This document shows positions 15,285-29,877 of a stretch of 64,000 nt of DNA, piece by piece. The notes below the pieces were generated by a model that worked only from the letters and a program-made list of their open reading frames with translations, searched no databases and was not told the origin of the DNA. The translations under genes and the position numbers were made by a program. The number at the start of each line of letters is the position of its first letter. Position 1 is the first letter of the stretch. This DNA comes from Shimia gijangensis (lineage in GTDB: Bacteria > Pseudomonadota > Alphaproteobacteria > Rhodobacterales > Rhodobacteraceae), in assembly GCF_900142085.1 (NCBI RefSeq), contig NZ_FQZQ01000015.1, positions 1 through 64,000 of the forward strand. The letters run 5' to 3'.

Positions 15285-16225
15285 TTACGCGGCCATGTCT
15301 GATCTTTCCAGAGCAGCGTAGAAGTTTGTTTCTGCTTCAGCTGGTGGGGTGTTCCCGATGGGTTCGAGAAGACGGCGGTTGTTGAACCAGTCGACCCATT
15401 CGGGGGGGGCATATTCGACGGCATCAAAGCTACGCCAAGGGCCACAGCGAAGAATGACTTCTGCCTTGAACAAGCCGTTGATCGTCTCGGTCAAGGCATT
15501 GTCATAGGAATCCCCGACACTCCCAACCGACGGCGCGACCTTCGCCTCCGCCAGTCGTTCGGTGTACTTGATCGACAAGTATTGCGACCCGCGGTCCGAA
15601 TGATGCACGAGTTGATCCTGTTCTGGCCTACGTTGATGAACGGCCTGTTCCAAAGCATCTAAGACGAAACCCGCATTGGCTGTGCGGCTGGCCCGCCACC
15701 CCACGATCCGCCGCGCAAATACGTCGATGAGCGAGCGATTGACGGCGCCATTGGTTCGAGCCCAATGGCGAGCCGCCACATATACGAACCCTTGCCACGT
15801 CGCGACATAGGTAAAGTCACTGACCCAGAGCACGTTCGGTGCTGGTGCATGGAACTGCCGGTTCACGCGCTCCAACGGGCAAGGTAGCGCCTTGCCAAGC
15901 ACCGTTGTCTTTGGTTTTTTGCCGCGAATGACACCTTCAATGCCAATGTCCTTCATCAATCTGGCAACGGTGCAGCGTAAAATGTAAAAGCCTTCTCGGC
16001 GCATTTGGTGCCAGATTGTACGCACGCCATAAACCTTGAGGTTCTCCTCAAAGACCGGTTCAATCTCGGGCTTGAATTCTGCGTCACGTTTGGCGCGATC
16101 TGAAAGATGTGAAGGGTTGGCGCGGATAGCCAAATGATCGTAGAACGGTGCAGGGGCAATCGGCAAAACACGGCAGATTGGCTCGCCCCATGATCATCAC
16201 GGTGATCTTCGATGAACTGGATCAT
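15285..16225 (-). pseudogene. IS3 transposase OrfB, frameshifted
   Basis: OrfB supplies the DDE integrase core: first Asp in VLWVSDFTYVAT, second in HHSDRGSQY, Glu in ETINGLFKAE. It should start at 16225 ([13 protein letters not shown]), overlapping the orfA stop. The frame shifts near 16184-16187, where GGG-GC-GAG seems to have lost one base relative to the expected G-V-E-P-I-C reading. The rest continues in another frame to 15285. In addition, where IS3 transposases read AFVIDVFAR, this copy reads AARHWARTNGAVNRSLIDVFAR, about 13 extra residues. Both changes should inactivate it. Confidence 0.85.
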
Positions 16226-16548
16226 CGTTTGAATGGGCGGTCGAGCTCCGCCTGGGCAAAATATGCGGACGCTTTGCAAAGGATCTCGTTGGCTTGCTTG
16301 AGCTCGCACACTTCGCGCTCCAAGGCCTTCATCTTCTCGGCCTGTTCGGTCGTGATACCGCCTCGCTGGCCAGTATCGACTTCGACCTTCTTGACCCATT
16401 CGTTTAGCGTCTGAGGCGCACAGCCGATCTTCGACGCAATCGACACAATGGCCGGCCAACGGCTCTCATGCCGTTCTGCGCCGTCCAAAACCATCCGCAC
16501 GGCACGTTCGCGCACTTCAGGTGAATATTTGTGCGTTGTCTTGTTCAT
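16222..16548 (-). CDS. IS3 transposase OrfA
   Basis: A 108-residue OrfA with a helix-turn-helix ([13 protein letters not shown] to [14 protein letters not shown], residues about 9-55) that binds the terminal repeats, followed by a leucine-zipper-like coil ([20 protein letters not shown], about 70-90). In IS3 elements OrfA is fused to OrfB by programmed minus-one frameshifting; here the stop overlaps the OrfB start. The OrfA frame itself is intact. Confidence 0.9.
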
Positions 16549-24482: not shown

Positions 24483-25625
24483 TCAGACCGATCCAAACAG
24501 CCGCGCATGTTCCTGTAAGGCATAGCGATCGGTCATACCGGCAAGATAGTCTGACACGATCCGTGCCACATGGGTTTTATCAGGGGCATGCGCCAGATCC
24601 GCCTGCCAGTTTTCGGGCAACAGAGCGGTATTGCCCATAAACAACGGGAACAAATCCTCGACAATTTTGGTCACCTCGGCCCGTTTCATCATCACCGATG
24701 GCGCCCGGTACATGCGGGTGAACAAAAAGTGGCGGATTTCTTGCAGATCAGACCAAAGCGCGGTGGAAAATTGGATCACGGGTGCTTTGTTGGCGCGAAT
24801 TTCCTCAACGCTTTGCGCACCACTGGCTTGCAGCAGGTCCCGCGAGGTGTCGATCACGTCGCCGACCATCACGCCGAACACTTGTCGCAACGCCTCGTGG
24901 CGACGACGGTTGGCATCCAGCCCCGGATGCAATCGATCAACTCCGTCGTAAGCCTCTGAAATGATGGGCAGGTTCAGAATATCTGCTTCTGTGAACAGCC
25001 CGGCCCGCAAGCCATCATGCAGATCGTGATTGTTATAGGCAATATCGTCTGCAAGGGCGGCCACCTGGGCCTCAGCACTGGCGTATGTGTGCAGCTCAAG
25101 GTCATGCACAGCGTTGTAGTCAGCCAGCGCATAAGGCAAATTGCCCACAACCGGCCCGTTGTGCTTGGCAATGCCCTCGAGCGTTTCCCACGTCAGATTG
25201 AGCCCATCAAACCCGGCATAATGACGTTCGAGCGAGGTTACGATACGAATGGCTTGCGCATTGTGGTCAAACCCACCGTAGGGTTGCATCAAAAGGTGCA
25301 GCGCGTCTTCACCAGTGTGGCCAAAGGGCGTGTGTCCAAGATCATGGGCCAGCGCCACGGCCTCGGTCAGCTCAGCATTTAGCCCCAAAGCCCCGGAAAT
25401 GGTGCGTGCAACTTGCGCCACCTCAATGGAATGGGTCAGACGTGTGCGATAATAATCGCCCTCGTGTTCAACAAACACCTGGGTTTTGTGCTTCAGTCGC
25501 CGAAAGGCGCTAGAGTGGATGATCCGGTCGCGATCCCGCTGAAAGCAGGAGCGAAAAGTGCTTTCCTCTTCCCTGACACGCCGTCCCCTGGCGGTACTGG
25601 GATCCGAGGCATATGACGCTCTCAT
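24483..25625 (-). CDS. dgt: Deoxyguanosinetriphosphate triphosphohydrolase-like protein
   Basis: A 380-residue HD-domain protein. The metal site is visible as His in RLTHSIEVAQ, the HD pair in VALAHDLGHTPFGHTGE, and a later Asp in LADDIAYNNHD. The N-terminal RLKHKTQVF motif is typical of bacterial dGTPase-like proteins. Such enzymes cleave dNTPs to nucleoside and tripolyphosphate; the preferred substrate of this type-2 branch is uncertain. It is the first gene of the minus-strand dgt-argS cluster and is divergent from erpA. Confidence 0.92.
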   Translation of the reverse strand: MRASYASDPSTARGRRVREEESTFRSCFQRDRDRIIHSSAFRRLKHKTQVFVEHEGDYYRTRLTHSIEVAQVARTISGALGLNAELTEAVALAHDLGHTPFGHTGEDALHLLMQPYGGFDHNAQAIRIVTSLERHYAGFDGLNLTWETLEGIAKHNGPVVGNLPYALADYNAVHDLELHTYASAEAQVAALADDIAYNNHDLHDGLRAGLFTEADILNLPIISEAYDGVDRLHPGLDANRRRHEALRQVFGVMVGDVIDTSRDLLQASGAQSVEEIRANKAPVIQFSTALWSDLQEIRHFLFTRMYRAPSVMMKRAEVTKIVEDLFPLFMGNTALLPENWQADLAHAPDKTHVARIVSDYLAGMTDRYALQEHARLFGSV

Positions 25626-25739: not shown

Positions 25740-26063
25740 ATGAACCTTCCGCCCAAAGTGACCGACCGAGCCTATGAACGTCTTGCCGAAATTGGTGCGG
25801 CAGATCAGGGTCAGGCCTTGCGTGTTGCCGTCGAAGGTGGGGGATGTTCCGGGTTTCAATACGAGATCAAGCTGGACACGCCGGCCGAGGATGACATGGT
25901 TCTGGAAAGCAACGGCGAAAAGGTCATTGTGGATTCCGTGTCAATGCCATTTCTGGCCAATGCCGTCATCGATTTCAGCGAAGAACTGATTGGGGCACGG
26001 TTTGTAATCGACAACCCCAACGCGTCAAGCTCGTGCGGATGCGGAACCAGTTTTTCGATCTAA
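25740..26063 (+). CDS. erpA: A-type iron-sulfur cluster carrier (ErpA/IscA)
   Basis: A 107-residue HesB/IscA-family protein that delivers Fe-S clusters to apo-enzymes. The three conserved cysteines are visible: one in GGGCSGFQY and two in the C-terminal SSCGCGTSF. The ATG follows GGAGAGACACA. It is divergent from dgt and converges on the DMT transporter gene, with nine bases between stops. The exact paralogue (ErpA or IscA) cannot be settled by eye. Confidence 0.93.
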   Translation: MNLPPKVTDRAYERLAEIGAADQGQALRVAVEGGGCSGFQYEIKLDTPAEDDMVLESNGEKVIVDSVSMPFLANAVIDFSEELIGARFVIDNPNASSSCGCGTSFSI

Positions 26064-26072
26064 ATCAGAATT

Positions 26073-27026
26073 TTACCTGACGATCTTCGTGTATCTTCTG
26101 GGCTGCCACAGGCGCAGGCTGAAGCGTTGTGACAAAGGGATGGCCACCGCCTTGTCTTTGGTGGGTTGCATCTGATCCCAGATCAGGAACACGCCCGACC
26201 CGATGACGATGGCCACACCAAGATAGATGTTGGAGGCAGGCACTTCGCCAAAGAACACAGCGCCCAGGACAACCATCCAGACAAATTGCAGATTCATCAA
26301 AGGTGTGACGGCATAGGCAGCAAGCAAGCGCAGTGACACCACCAGCAGCCAGCGCGCGGCAAACAAAAACACGGCATAAGCCCCGACCCATCCCAGATCC
26401 CCAAGGGGCATCGGTTTGTACACAAAAGGCAAAACCATCGCCATCGCCACACAAAGCGCGGCATTGGGAAAGAACACCTGAGCGAGCGAATTGGCCTCAT
26501 ACCGACCGATGAAGCGCGCCAACACCATGGACAGCGTGCCACAGAGACAGGCAAACAGTGCCACCAGATGGCCAAAGGAAACCGAAGCAATCCCGCCCGG
26601 AAACAGGCACAACACGCCAATGAAGCCCGCAGCAAGCGCCGCCCATGCCACGGGGCGCACGTACTCGCCCAAGATGGGGGCGGAAAACAATCCGGCAAAG
26701 ATGGGCATCATGCCAATGAAAACAAAGACTTCCGCAAAGGGCAGAAAGCGAAAGGCGTAAAAGAAGGCCACCGATCCGATAACGGTAAGCAAGGCCCGCA
26801 GCGCCATGGCGCGCGGACAAGAGGTGCGCAAAGACTGGGTTTCACCGCTGGCGCGCGCGGACACCCAGCTGAGCCCCACCACGATGGCCCCGGAAAACGC
26901 AAAAAGCTGGGGGGCGGCATATCCGGCAGCGATGAATTTCGTGATCGCATCGGCCGAAGAAATTGCCAGCGTGTAGAGAAGAACCAATCCGGTTCCCGCA
27001 AGCGCGCCTTTGTTCCAGAGGGCCAT
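26073..27026 (-). CDS. DMT-superfamily (EamA) transporter
   Basis: About 317 residues with ten hydrophobic helices in two EamA repeats (second repeat around RFIGRYEANSLAQVFFPNA to IYLGVAIVIGSGVFLIWDQM). Members mostly export amino acids, metabolites or drugs. Its ATG overlaps the stop of the 27026 gene (ATGTGATG), so the two are translationally coupled, tying this transporter to the FTSGL-repeat peptide operon. A role in exporting a product of that operon is inference; the DMT family has no established peptide-export role that I know of. Confidence 0.85.
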   Translation of the reverse strand: MALWNKGALAGTGLVLLYTLAISSADAITKFIAAGYAAPQLFAFSGAIVVGLSWVSARASGETQSLRTSCPRAMALRALLTVIGSVAFFYAFRFLPFAEVFVFIGMMPIFAGLFSAPILGEYVRPVAWAALAAGFIGVLCLFPGGIASVSFGHLVALFACLCGTLSMVLARFIGRYEANSLAQVFFPNAALCVAMAMVLPFVYKPMPLGDLGWVGAYAVFLFAARWLLVVSLRLLAAYAVTPLMNLQFVWMVVLGAVFFGEVPASNIYLGVAIVIGSGVFLIWDQMQPTKDKAVAIPLSQRFSLRLWQPRRYTKIVR

Positions 27027-28099
27027 CACATCACCGCCAACGCACGACCAGTGCGGGCAAAGCCTTGGAAAAAGGCGCTAAATTTGTCCGAGGAGGTTTC
27101 TGCCCAGGACATAACGGCCTGTGCGTCTTCGGACAGGTGGTCCAGAACCACCGGGCGCATTGTCTCCCAATCGTCGCTGCGGTCCGTGAGCTTGAACATA
27201 CATTCCGAAAGCTCGCGTAGTGGGCCAGACACTCCATCGGGGCGGAAAAAGGCCATGCGTTCCGATTTCAACGTTTTGGCAAAGGGTTGATGACCGGTGA
27301 CAGACAGCATCCAGTTACAAACCAAAAATTCGTGGTAATCATCATTTGGGGTGGTTTTCTGATCGGTTTGCACATCGAAGCGATGTGTGTGGCGCAAAAG
27401 CCAGGTCTCCCAGACCTCGGGCACATCAAAGCCGCCAAAACGCAGTGCGATGCAAATCTCGGCCAGCAAGTCAGCGTTTTGTTCGATGAAGGCCAGAAGA
27501 CCGGTAAATTCAAGCGAGGTCCGCGTTTCAGCGTCCAGCATGGGGTCTTTGCGGCCATATTCGGACAGATAGAACACCGCGTGGGTCAGCTCGTATGCAG
27601 CCTTTTTGTTGGGCATCGAAAAGGTGGCAGAGCGCGCGATAAAGCTGCGCATCCGATCCTCAAGGCCGGTATCCCCCGCCAGAGGATCAACCCCGCGCCG
27701 CGCCATCAGGCGGCGGGCCTCGAGGCGTTGGAGGTCAGACAGCTCAGCCTGAGCAAATCCTTGATCTGCAACCCATTTTACCAAAGCAGCCCCCTTGTCA
27801 CCCGGTATTCCAAGGTCTTCAAGGTCAAGGCAGATCGACAGTAAAAAGCGATAGTATTGGGGGAAAAACTGCAGGCGGTTTTCGACCTTGTCATAAAACC
27901 CAGCAAAGGCGGTCAATGCGTCGTCGTCGACCTGCGCACCTGTGCATTCCAGGATATTCAGCAGCTCGGCATTTTCTTTGAGCCAGAACACATCGTCCCC
28001 AAAGCGACGAAAGCTGGCAAAACTGTGCATGAGAGCGCCGTGGCGCTCGGATGCGGGTTGCCGCCGGGACGGGACGTTGAGTTGAACAATGTTAGTCAT
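27026..28099 (-). CDS. Unrecognised 357-residue protein in repeat-peptide operon
   Basis: A soluble, mostly helical protein with no signal peptide or membrane segment. I recognise no catalytic domain with confidence. Eye-catching are YELTHAVFYLSEYGR (about 188-202), RHTHRFDV, NDDYHEFLVCNWML and TGHQPF, whose spaced His, Glu and Asp residues could form a metal or active site. It may correspond to a domain of unknown function found in Rhodobacteraceae. AGGGAG precedes its ATG. It lies 60 bases after the repeat-peptide gene and overlaps the downstream exporter start. A modifying enzyme or chaperone for the repeat peptide is a hypothesis. Confidence 0.75.
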   Translation of the reverse strand: MTNIVQLNVPSRRQPASERHGALMHSFASFRRFGDDVFWLKENAELLNILECTGAQVDDDALTAFAGFYDKVENRLQFFPQYYRFLLSICLDLEDLGIPGDKGAALVKWVADQGFAQAELSDLQRLEARRLMARRGVDPLAGDTGLEDRMRSFIARSATFSMPNKKAAYELTHAVFYLSEYGRKDPMLDAETRTSLEFTGLLAFIEQNADLLAEICIALRFGGFDVPEVWETWLLRHTHRFDVQTDQKTTPNDDYHEFLVCNWMLSVTGHQPFAKTLKSERMAFFRPDGVSGPLRELSECMFKLTDRSDDWETMRPVVLDHLSEDAQAVMSWAETSSDKFSAFFQGFARTGRALAVM

Positions 28100-28119
28100 G
28101 TCAGTCTCCCTGGTGACAG

Positions 28120-28139
28120 GGGGCGCGACCCCGCGCCCC
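28120..28139 (-). terminator. Strong hairpin after the repeat-peptide gene
   Basis: An eight-base all-GC stem (GGGGCGCG with CGCGCCCC) and a four-base loop lie between the repeat-peptide stop and the next start. No T-run follows. Such hairpins raise expression of the first gene relative to the rest by stabilising its message or by partial attenuation, as is usual where a peptide precursor must outnumber its partners. Confidence 0.65.
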
Positions 28140-28159
28140 GTTCCGGTAAGCAGTTGGGC

Positions 28160-28723
28160 TTAAAGACCTGAGGTGAACAGGTCGGCACCTTCTCCGGCGT
28201 CCGCCCGAGCAGTGGTTGTGGGCGCAAGGCCCGAAGTGAACATCTGAACCAGACCTGAAGTGAACATCTCGGTGGCGTCACCCGCATCCGCAGAGGTGCC
28301 ACTGGCCGCAAGGCCCGAGGTGAACATTTCCAGGCCTTCACCTGATGTTGTTTGTGCCGTTGCACTTGGGGCAAGACCCGAAGTGAACATTTGCACGAGA
28401 CCGGATGTGAACATTTCTGTTGCATCCCCGACCTCTGTCGACGTGCCGCTTGCGCTGAGGCCTGATGTAAACATCTCAAGCCCCTCACCTGCGGTCGTTT
28501 CTGCCGTAGCACTGGGCGCAAGGCCCGAGGTGAACATCTGGACCAAACCAGATGTAAACATCTCGGCACCATCACCAGCCATTGCGTCCGAGGCCATCTC
28601 GGGTGACAATCCCGATGTGAACAGTTCGGTGTTCAGGCCGTCATGCATGCTTGTTCCCGAGCGATGTTGCGCACGGTTTGCAAACGTTTCGTTAACCATT
28701 TCGACAGATTTTTGAGCGAGCAT
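28160..28723 (-). CDS. Peptide with ten FTSGL repeats, possible multi-core precursor
   Basis: A 187-residue protein in two parts. Residues 1-31 are a non-repetitive leader with no classical signal peptide. From 32 to 187 the octet x-x-M/L-F-T-S-G-L occurs ten times, at 32, 53, 61, 82, 102, 110, 131, 151, 159 and 180, and the protein ends exactly on the tenth GL. Spacers are Ala/Ser/Thr/Gly-rich and either 12-13 residues or absent. A 49-residue superunit repeats twice and begins a third time. GGAGGG precedes the ATG. It heads an operon with an unknown protein and an exporter. The layout suggests a leader plus repeated core peptide; a structural or surface role is equally open. Confidence 0.8.
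   Translation of the reverse strand: MLAQKSVEMVNETFANRAQHRSGTSMHDGLNTELFTSGLSPEMASDAMAGDGAEMFTSGLVQMFTSGLAPSATAETTAGEGLEMFTSGLSASGTSTEVGDATEMFTSGLVQMFTSGLAPSATAQTTSGEGLEMFTSGLAASGTSADAGDATEMFTSGLVQMFTSGLAPTTTARADAGEGADLFTSGL
28163..28630 (-). repeat. Tandem repeats coding FTSGL units (147-bp superunit)
   Basis: Within the gene at 28160 the DNA repeats with a 147-bp period (28543-28397 and 28396-28250, then a partial third copy to 28163), each with three FTSGL boxes. Codon use varies between copies (for example GGCCTGAGG, GGTCTGG and GGGCTTGCC stretches), so the peptide motif seems to be conserved better than the DNA. The period should make copy number prone to change between strains. Confidence 0.85.
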
Positions 28724-29097
28724 TGGTAACCCTCCAGGTTGAAGTTTTGAGCACCATCACGCTTGCACGTTAAGCGGGTTTTGCAAATCATTTTTTCTCG
28801 TTTTTGGTGCGCAAGGTTTGAGAGCGATTAAAGATGAAACAATCTATCCAATTGATATTATGACCTTTTTAGTCTCTTTTTGCTGCCTCATTTTTGACGC
28901 AATTTAGCCCACTTTTTGCCACACTTTACCAAAGTACCGCTTAAGTTGAATCCAAATCAATGCCCTTCCATGGCGAATCCCCCCTCGCAGTGCGACTCGA
29001 TTCCGTGTTTGGGTTTGCGGATTTTCTCTGCCACAGCCCCCTTGCCAGCCATCACCATGTGCGGGATACAAGGACCACGCCGGGCAAGGAGACCTCA
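28724..29097. other. Divergent promoter region, repeat peptide and xth
   Basis: This 374-base gap between divergent starts holds no gene I support. It is AT-rich around 28780-28920 (TTTTTTCTCG, TTGATATTATGACC, TTTTGACGC), unlike the GC-rich surroundings, and should carry promoters for both the FTSGL operon and xth. I could not identify a specific operator. Confidence 0.5.
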
Positions 29098-29877
29098 ATG
29101 AAAGTCGCGACATTCAACATCAACGGCATCAAAGCCCGGATTAATGCGCTGCCACAGTGGCTCGACGAGGCCCAACCGGACGTCGCCCTGCTGCAGGAAA
29201 TCAAATCCGTTGATGAGGCTTTTCCGCGCGAAATCTTTGAAGATCGTGGTTATCAGGTCGAAACCCACGGGCAAAAGTCGTTCAACGGTGTGGCGATCCT
29301 GTCCAAGCTGCCCCTTGAGGATGTCACGCGCGGTCTGCCCGGCGACGCCGAAGACGAGCAGGCGCGCTGGATCGAGGCCACGGTGATGGGCGACACAGCC
29401 ATTCGGGTTTGCGGGCTCTATCTGCCCAACGGCAACCCCTGCCCCGGCCCTAAATATGACTATAAACTGAGCTGGATGGAGCGTCTGCACGCGCGCGCGC
29501 AGGAATTGTTGTCTGCAGAAGAACCGTTTTTGATGGCGGGTGACTACAATATCATCCCGCAGGACGAAGATGCCCGCAGCCCCGAAGTCTGGCAGGAAGA
29601 CGCGCTGGCCCGCCCAGAAAGTCGCGCGGCGTTCCGCCGGTTGATGAACCTTGGCTTTACCGAAGCATTCCGCGCCCGCACTCAAGGACCCGAGCATTAT
29701 TCGTTCTGGGATTATCAGGCCGGCGCATGGAACCGTGACAATGGTATTCGTATCGACCACTTCTTGCTGAGCCCCCAGTGCGCCGACCTGTTGCTGGACT
29801 GTCAGATCGACAAGGAAATCCGTGGCCGAGAGAAGCCTTCGGATCACGTGCCGGTATGGGTGGACTTAGCGGTGTAA
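29098..29877 (+). CDS. xth: Exodeoxyribonuclease III
   Basis: A 259-residue ExoIII/AP-endonuclease of base-excision repair. Visible family blocks are ATFNINGIKAR with the metal-site Asn, LLQEIKSVDEAFP with the metal Glu, GLYLPNGNPCPG, LMAGDYNIIPQDED with the catalytic Asp and Asn, and the C-terminal RIDHFLLS and SDHVPVW with Asp-His. I use the ATG at 29098, which matches the family N-terminus; the longer frame adds unsupported residues. It is cytoplasmic and monocistronic here. Confidence 0.95.
   Translation: MKVATFNINGIKARINALPQWLDEAQPDVALLQEIKSVDEAFPREIFEDRGYQVETHGQKSFNGVAILSKLPLEDVTRGLPGDAEDEQARWIEATVMGDTAIRVCGLYLPNGNPCPGPKYDYKLSWMERLHARAQELLSAEEPFLMAGDYNIIPQDEDARSPEVWQEDALARPESRAAFRRLMNLGFTEAFRARTQGPEHYSFWDYQAGAWNRDNGIRIDHFLLSPQCADLLLDCQIDKEIRGREKPSDHVPVWVDLAV

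Follow-up and report, generated by a model that had tools for sequence, protein, structure and literature searches.

A repeat-array precursor paired with a DUF6902 protein in Shimia gijangensis: a probable multi-core ribosomal peptide system with a candidate core-epimerising enzyme

The window analysed here, a stretch of 64,000 nucleotides from Shimia gijangensis (contig NZ_FQZQ01000015.1, positions 1 to 64,000; assembly GCF_900142085.1), encodes on its minus strand a repeat protein of 187 residues, followed by a protein of 357 residues belonging to the Pfam family DUF6902 and by a transporter of the EamA/drug-metabolite transporter (DMT) type. The favoured reading, to which a probability of about 0.55 is given as a whole, is that of a multi-core ribosomal peptide system in which the DUF6902 protein would modify the cores of the repeat protein by L-to-D epimerisation. 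The parts of this reading differ in strength: that the repeat protein and the DUF6902 protein stand to each other as multi-core precursor and enzyme is highly probable; for an epimerisation of core residues to the D-form, as judged from sequence comparison, the odds are even or slightly better. An earlier note, made from the letters of the DNA alone, had proposed a multi-core peptide system at this site, and the co-occurrence of the two genes, the conservation of the cores and the varying copy number bear this proposal out.

The precursor gene (28160..28723, minus strand) starts with a leader of 31 residues (28631..28723, minus strand), directly after which the first octet, TELFTSGL, begins. 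The pentapeptide FTSGL occurs ten times, starting at residues 35, 56, 64, 85, 105, 113, 134, 154, 162 and 183 (cores 1 to 10, all on the minus strand: 28607..28621, 28544..28558, 28520..28534, 28457..28471, 28397..28411, 28373..28387, 28310..28324, 28250..28264, 28226..28240 and 28163..28177), and the tenth copy is the exact C-terminus. Open reading frame and copy positions agree here with the length, leader and number of copies given in the earlier note. Its description of the array as copies of an octet holds in part: the ten FTSGL copies and the first octet are present, but the spacing of 21/8/21/20/8/21/20/8/21 residues is mixed, only cores 3, 6 and 9 following at a distance of 8 residues. 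In 20,000 shuffles of the residues of this precursor the maximum number of FTSGL copies was one, and the codons used for the ten copies are varied and synonymous. Within the leader the residues M1, L2, S6, E12, T13, D28 and G29 are invariant in an alignment of 10 precursor sequences, and a GGAGGG motif upstream of the ATG (28730..28735, minus strand) is the likely ribosome-binding site. The AlphaFold2 model of the precursor has no ordered fold, with a mean predicted local distance difference test score (pLDDT) of 35, which is more in keeping with a substrate than with a regularly folded repeat. Searches of Pfam, NCBIfam and PHROGs returned only matches to precursors that look low-complexity. 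A match to Herpes_UL35 for the precursor of locus L122 (L numbers label loci and G numbers genomes) exceeded the whole-protein cut-off at 7.2e-10 with no stretch passing and was taken as compositional, and DUF6749, a candidate family for such repeat proteins, was not shown by Pfam on 12 precursors.

Precursor and DUF6902 are found in the same genomes. In a family sample of 198 genomes, one per genus, DUF6902 is present in 55 and the precursor profile (E up to 1e-5) matches 50, all of which lie inside the 55, Fisher values for this overlap ignoring phylogeny. Five genomes with DUF6902 escape the profile (G039, G041, G099, G139 and G174). By eye, three of them carry short two-copy arrays of the AYIAGL, MMCCS and TTSC types, one is a contig-end fragment, and G039 encodes at the same locus a DUF6902 relative of 26% identity with no precursor adjoining. 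In a second sample, 25 genomes of the genus Shimia, both occur in the same 15 genomes, and in three genomes of the genus that were inspected they are absent together from an otherwise intact locus. The question of the earlier note, whether the two co-occur, can thus be answered in the affirmative, and in neither sample was the repeat protein common without its neighbour. An orthologue of the EamA transporter (E up to 1e-50) was found in 41 of the 55 DUF6902 genomes and in no other genome of the family sample, which leaves 14 without it; in the genus it is present in 18 of the 25 genomes, including three which lack precursor and DUF6902 and keep EamA alone between the flanking exonuclease and ErpA genes. 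As the pair shares genomes while EamA persists alone, precursor and DUF6902 are an inherited unit and EamA is an accessory able to outlive the pair.

A collection with one genome per species yielded 356 pattern-matched stretches encoding a DUF6902 relative; among the best 80 of these all titles are Rhodobacter-group or broader alphaproteobacterial, and the closest relatives of the window protein are Shimia records with up to 79% identity. The best 80 together with 38 of 40 loci from other searches gave a sample of 118 loci, from which 113 upstream open reading frames were kept (five were dropped by hand), 105 of them distinct, and 104 yielded a core by script. By this script, in which a few counts include a spurious match, the arrays contain 2–20 copies (median 8); 83 of the 104 precursors have the last core exactly at the C-terminus and 100 have it within 8 residues of that end. 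The remaining four (L041, L047, L052 and L102) finish, by eye, in a variant core. The consensus pentapeptides are FSSGS (22), FTSGS (19), FTSGL (13), FTSWS (6), FTSSL (6) and a further 27 that are less frequent, the register being off by at least one residue in a few arrays, and other lineages have core types that include FTCGL and FTSSM. Within an array the cores are identical in 73 of 104 cases and differ in the first residue alone, e.g., Y for F, in a further 17, so that copy number varies with the core kept, as the earlier note had expected of such a system. The broader consensus reads G-[DE]-x-x-[EQ]-[ML]-F-[TS]-S-[GS]-x, and the spacing is mostly 20–21 residues, with spacings of 8 in the FTSGL arrays and in most of the L143 array. 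A-P follows most internal cores and does not follow the last one.

The constraint acting on the copies was estimated from copy pairs within 100 arrays having at least three copies. Silent sites have diverged strongly between copies (proportion of synonymous differences, pS, about 0.5–0.8), and the ratio of nonsynonymous to synonymous proportions (pN/pS) is 0.05–0.18 at the five core positions, values that are biased downward because the cores were picked by their likeness to the consensus. Outside the positions used for picking, G at −6 (0.12), D/E at −5 (0.31) and P at +6 (0.23) are constrained as well, and the spacer positions −12 to −7, +7 and +8 are near-neutral (0.67–0.94). Low core values at such silent divergence suggest that each copy seems to be separately constrained. 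Between species, entire arrays change their core: when the 15 core types are placed on a tree of 69 DUF6902 proteins, 20 changes are required (minimum 14, shuffled mean 44.8), and a fully supported clade of 11, ten Marivita and one metagenome-assembled genome, includes FTSGS, FTCGL, FTSAS, IMSAS and FTSGL cores in arrays that are uniform or nearly so, Y replacing F in one or two copies (L158, L163). Whole-array change of the core at highly diverged silent sites points to selection for uniformity or to array turnover. Such changes, setting sister species apart, suggest that the product is diversifying, and they make an ecological role testable in Shimia, Marivita and Roseovarius; signalling, competition or host interaction are guesses at such a role.

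The proposed core-modifying enzyme (27026..28099, minus strand) was called unrecognised in the earlier note; it belongs in fact to a described family of uncharacterised function, Pfam DUF6902 (PF21843; E 6.7e-167, 555 bits, cut-off 27). It also lies above the cut-off of DUF6895 (PF21836; E 1.5e-27, 97.1 bits, cut-off 23.8), and a profile-profile comparison connects both families at 6e-10. Seven residues (E45, H173, G182, D210, E214, Y255 and H256) are identical in 10 DUF6895 and 11 DUF6902 proteins and are likewise invariant over 48 aligned DUF6902 rows. The predicted structure is mainly alpha-helical (pLDDT 93.4, predicted template modelling score 0.91). Comparison of this model with the PDB gave no fold match at E up to 0.001, and a sequence search against solved structures found no relative, its only two matches having E-values of 0.4 and 1. 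No cofactor- or nucleotide-binding family of NCBIfam or Pfam matched the protein, and relatives were neither confirmed in viral contigs nor found in plasmids at 1e-5.

By the title of a study cited in PMC13352647 (Shi et al., ACS Catal 2026), DUF6895 is a family of lasso-peptide epimerases. The possibility raised in the earlier note, that the 357-residue protein has an unrelated known function, has accordingly found no backing, DUF6902 being uncharacterised and its distant relative an epimerase family as far as this title tells. Nine DUF6895 loci were compared (L181–L189; three genomic and six on plasmids, the plasmid records being from Streptomyces, Kitasatospora, Pseudalkalibacillus and Gemmatirosa), all above the Pfam cut-off. 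Directly upstream of DUF6895, seven of the nine have a short open reading frame with leader and core, double in two cases, and a candidate for such a frame is present at the Gemmatirosa locus. The cores are aromatic, e.g., GPWYAY and VLAWDKYVLVV. DUF6895 therefore resembles DUF6902 in homology, in the seven identical residues and in the precursor-like frame upstream; it differs in that its precursors have one or two cores compared with 2–20 in DUF6902 arrays, and in the leader pattern L..SG[IL].N...T..QL common to its precursors. These combinations, found in several phyla, are possibly an unrecognised class of their own among the ribosomally synthesised and post-translationally modified peptides (RiPPs).

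Some of the DUF6895 loci have peculiarities. A Streptomyces chartreusis plasmid has two tandem DUF6895-like genes (L186:4661–6903) with no precursor recognised, and two long proteins with an extra C-terminal half (L187:5941–7674, 577 residues; L188:5743–7497, 584 residues) have as neighbours precursors whose core reads VLAW[ED][RK]YVLV. The neighbours listed for the plasmid loci include no annotated RiPP enzyme. Among weaker DUF6895 matches, an M55 D-aminopeptidase (8.9e-41) is fused with a partial DUF6895 domain (1.1e-8) at L200:184–1875 (plus strand), a protein outside the residue alignment, and L201 (minus strand, frame 55–1881 of the reverse complement) contains a similar fusion by eye, Pfam having been run on L200 only. 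This fusion may connect the superfamily with peptides that contain D-residues.

A further kind of array was found outside the family, in a search covering 369 genomes of another class of the Pseudomonadota, which appears to be the Gammaproteobacteria, and four genomes of one order there. Three genomes of one genus in this class encode DUF6902 (profile E 8.0e-98 to 1.3e-104; Pfam E 2.3e-102 and 9e-95 for two of the three proteins), and in two of these genomes precursor, DUF6902 and EamA follow each other as in the window. One precursor of about 76 residues has the three cores ELFGCYTL, ELLGCYTQ and ELYGCYTA and the second has ELFGCYA, ELYGCYN and ELFGCYK; these FGCY arrays have a period of 19–20 residues and end two residues past the last GCY. 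In the third genome DUF6902 and a DMT-like reading frame are visible and the upstream side ends at the contig edge; the fourth genome of the order gave no DUF6902 match. That the gene order is kept here while the core is very different gives strong support to the view that precursor, DUF6902 and EamA belong together.

Taken as a multi-core system, a probably disordered precursor consisting of a leader and many short cores would be recognised by the DUF6902 protein, which would then modify its cores. The modification would most likely be an L-to-D epimerisation of a residue in the core that needs no cofactor, in which H173 and H256 together with D210 and E214 would act as two bases; the two invariant histidines and the acids would fit such a mechanism. 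The array would then probably be cut, plausibly before the A-P behind most internal cores, to give many like short peptides, and species with a DMT-type transporter may use it to move all or part of the product. Epimerisation is favoured because DUF6902 is homologous to DUF6895 and has invariant His, Asp and Glu residues in common with it, and because a DUF6895 domain is fused to a D-aminopeptidase. If the DUF6902 protein indeed modifies each core, this widespread pair would be a compact tool of one enzyme and one genetically encoded array for repeatedly introducing D-residues or other changes into short peptides.

The system has the general features of multi-core RiPPs, i.e., a leader with near-identical cores, and kept cores between drifting spacers, the core positions being affected by selection bias and the positions −6 and +6 being free of it. 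In addition, a co-inherited gene for a candidate modifying enzyme adjoins, whose action on the cores we infer. Cyanobactins, dikaritins and multi-core graspetides likewise have a leader, spaced repeated cores and an adjoining modifying enzyme. Their hallmark enzymes are ATP-grasp ligases, YcaO proteins, the PatA/PatG proteases and UstYa. The present system differs in that these are missing among the nine neighbours scanned, and none of them matches DUF6902. Nor do the nine larger open reading frames between 20.6 and 35.3 kb, which match other Pfam families, include the leader peptidase, the macrolactam synthetase or the recognition element expected of a lasso-peptide cluster. In the parts of PMC10406935 drawn on here, the C-terminal epimerase MslH of a lasso peptide, an unrelated enzyme, is described as using two His/Asp pairs flanking the alpha-carbon. 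MslH shares with the proposed system a ribosomal precursor as substrate and a His/Asp acid-base chemistry at its C-terminus, and DUF6902 may be analogous; MslH differs by a calcineurin-like fold with Ca(II), according to the same parts, whereas the DUF6902 model is mainly alpha-helical and not calcineurin-like. Multi-core RiPPs and RiPPs with D-residues are known, and it is their pairing with DUF6902 as sole candidate enzyme that is absent from the open-access searches: no paper containing the term DUF6902 was found, which is weak evidence of absence, and no title or abstract on the repeat precursor was found among the matches listed. A bolder version, that DUF6902 is a stand-alone, cofactor-free all-alpha epimerase which puts D-residues into 2–20 cores in turn, so that multi-core D-peptides would form a RiPP class of their own, that array-wide core changes give closely related species pherotype-like products for signalling or competition, and that DUF6895 of Actinomycetota, Bacillota, Pseudomonadota and perhaps Gemmatimonadota is its single- or double-core arm, is tentative and on balance doubtful.

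Several observations weigh against a multi-core system with an epimerising DUF6902. Mixed or script-misread arrays make up 14 of the 104, and the core pN/pS carries the downward bias described above. A divergent DUF6902 relative (L062:3831–4928; 26% identity) lies precursor-less at the same chromosomal locus, and five of the six weak DUF6895 matches (L196–L201, all but L197 inspected) have no precursor, so that the superfamily is not solely linked to precursors. The genes scanned included no match to a maturation protease, with no search aimed at RiPP recognition elements. Doubt over epimerisation in particular arises from position +2 of the core, which every one of the 795 tallied cores fills with S, T or C, N and A occurring at this position only outside the tally (L036, L061): such a rule is needless for epimerisation and is expected for side-chain chemistry. 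Hence, under the same multi-core RiPP logic, the target of DUF6902 might be the Phe or the Ser/Thr/Cys at +2 and its reaction a different one (dehydration, cyclisation or the transfer of a side chain, for instance), epimerisation being confined to the related DUF6895 proteins. F at position 0 in 755 of the 795 cores, consensus-picked as these are, would agree with this, as would the C retained at +2 in the FGCY cores and the very different look of DUF6895 cores (GPWF/Y, VLAW..YVLV). Against it stand the lack of any match of DUF6902 to the cofactor- or nucleotide-binding families mentioned above and the fact that its invariant polar residues are those it has in common with DUF6895. Chemistry follows protein family usually, although not always. 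This other chemistry is considered rather unlikely.

Two further explanations dispense with a peptide product. The repeat protein could be a standing low-complexity protein, such as a scaffold, an adhesin-like or a stress protein, with DUF6902 as its chaperone or binding partner; the 20–21-residue period of most arrays could suit a regular structure, and that no maturation protease was identified also speaks for it. However, spacings of 8 are interspersed among those of 20–21, and the L143 array even consists mostly of octets, the spacers evolve near-neutrally, AlphaFold2 predicts no fold, the last core is usually the exact C-terminus and the cores switch array-wide, which together render this explanation improbable. 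Still less probable, and to be given only a slight chance, is that the repeat protein resides in the cytoplasm and binds a metal or ligand through the Ser/Thr/Cys of its cores, EamA carrying the ligand: cores with Cys do exist (FTCGL, MMCCS, FGCY), but most consensus cores are without Cys or His, the core positions +1, +3 and +4 vary between species, and the transporter orthologue is missing from the 14 genomes noted above. A phage or defence origin was rejected as well: PADLOC gave nothing at E up to 0.1, the low-complexity precursor had only weak PHROG matches, and the searches of viral contigs and plasmids mentioned above were negative for DUF6902.

The transporter gene (EamA/DMT, 318 residues, GTG start; 26073..27029, minus strand) overlaps the stop of the DUF6902 gene by 4 nucleotides, in agreement with the overlap reported in the earlier note. 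The role of exporter and partner proposed there stands only in part: EamA is frequent and overlaps DUF6902, but it is separable, and an obligatory part was rejected, the gene being missing in the 14 of 55 family genomes and kept alone in three of ten pair-less genus genomes. When the 118 loci were compared by tblastn with the window proteins, some genomes being included twice and some stretches cut by contig ends, EamA was found at 88; of the 30 without it, L053 and L131 end directly after DUF6902, and, as read from this comparison, it is missing at all 11 loci of the Marivita clade, L164 included. Outside the system lie an exonuclease III-like gene of the Exo_endo_phos family (28960..29877, plus strand), an ErpA-like gene for Fe-S biosynthesis (25740..26063, plus strand) and a Dgt-like HD-domain gene (24483..25625, minus strand), all matched by Pfam and conserved: they are kept at 113, 104 and 103 of the 118 loci, respectively, and all three at 98. 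Further Pfam matches in the flanks belong to arginyl-tRNA synthetase, glycosyl hydrolase 3, SPOR, ABC-transport and amidase families.

The strong hairpin which the earlier note saw behind the precursor gene is present as a perfect, G+C-rich stem of 8 base pairs with a loop of 4 nucleotides and no T-run (28120..28139, minus strand), and its stem was equalled in 2 of 100 base-composition shuffles. Stems of at least 6 base pairs occur in 38 of 104 intergenic regions between precursor and DUF6902 compared with 7.8 expected, these regions being related and not independent. The folding energy of the whole intergenic region is ordinary (z +0.3 in the window, median z −0.28), and for this reason the hairpin is given little weight. 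As a terminator it was rejected, since it has no T-run, was not called by the terminator scan and lies in a region folding no more strongly than shuffles.

At the Rfam gathering threshold the window contains only one transfer RNA and an ALIL pseudoknot, both away from this locus. The pseudoknot (RF01497, 105.8 bits; 16152–16267, minus strand) has open reading frames on either side (15285–16166 and 16222–16548, minus strand); ALIL pseudoknots are usually frameshift signals of IS3-family transposases.

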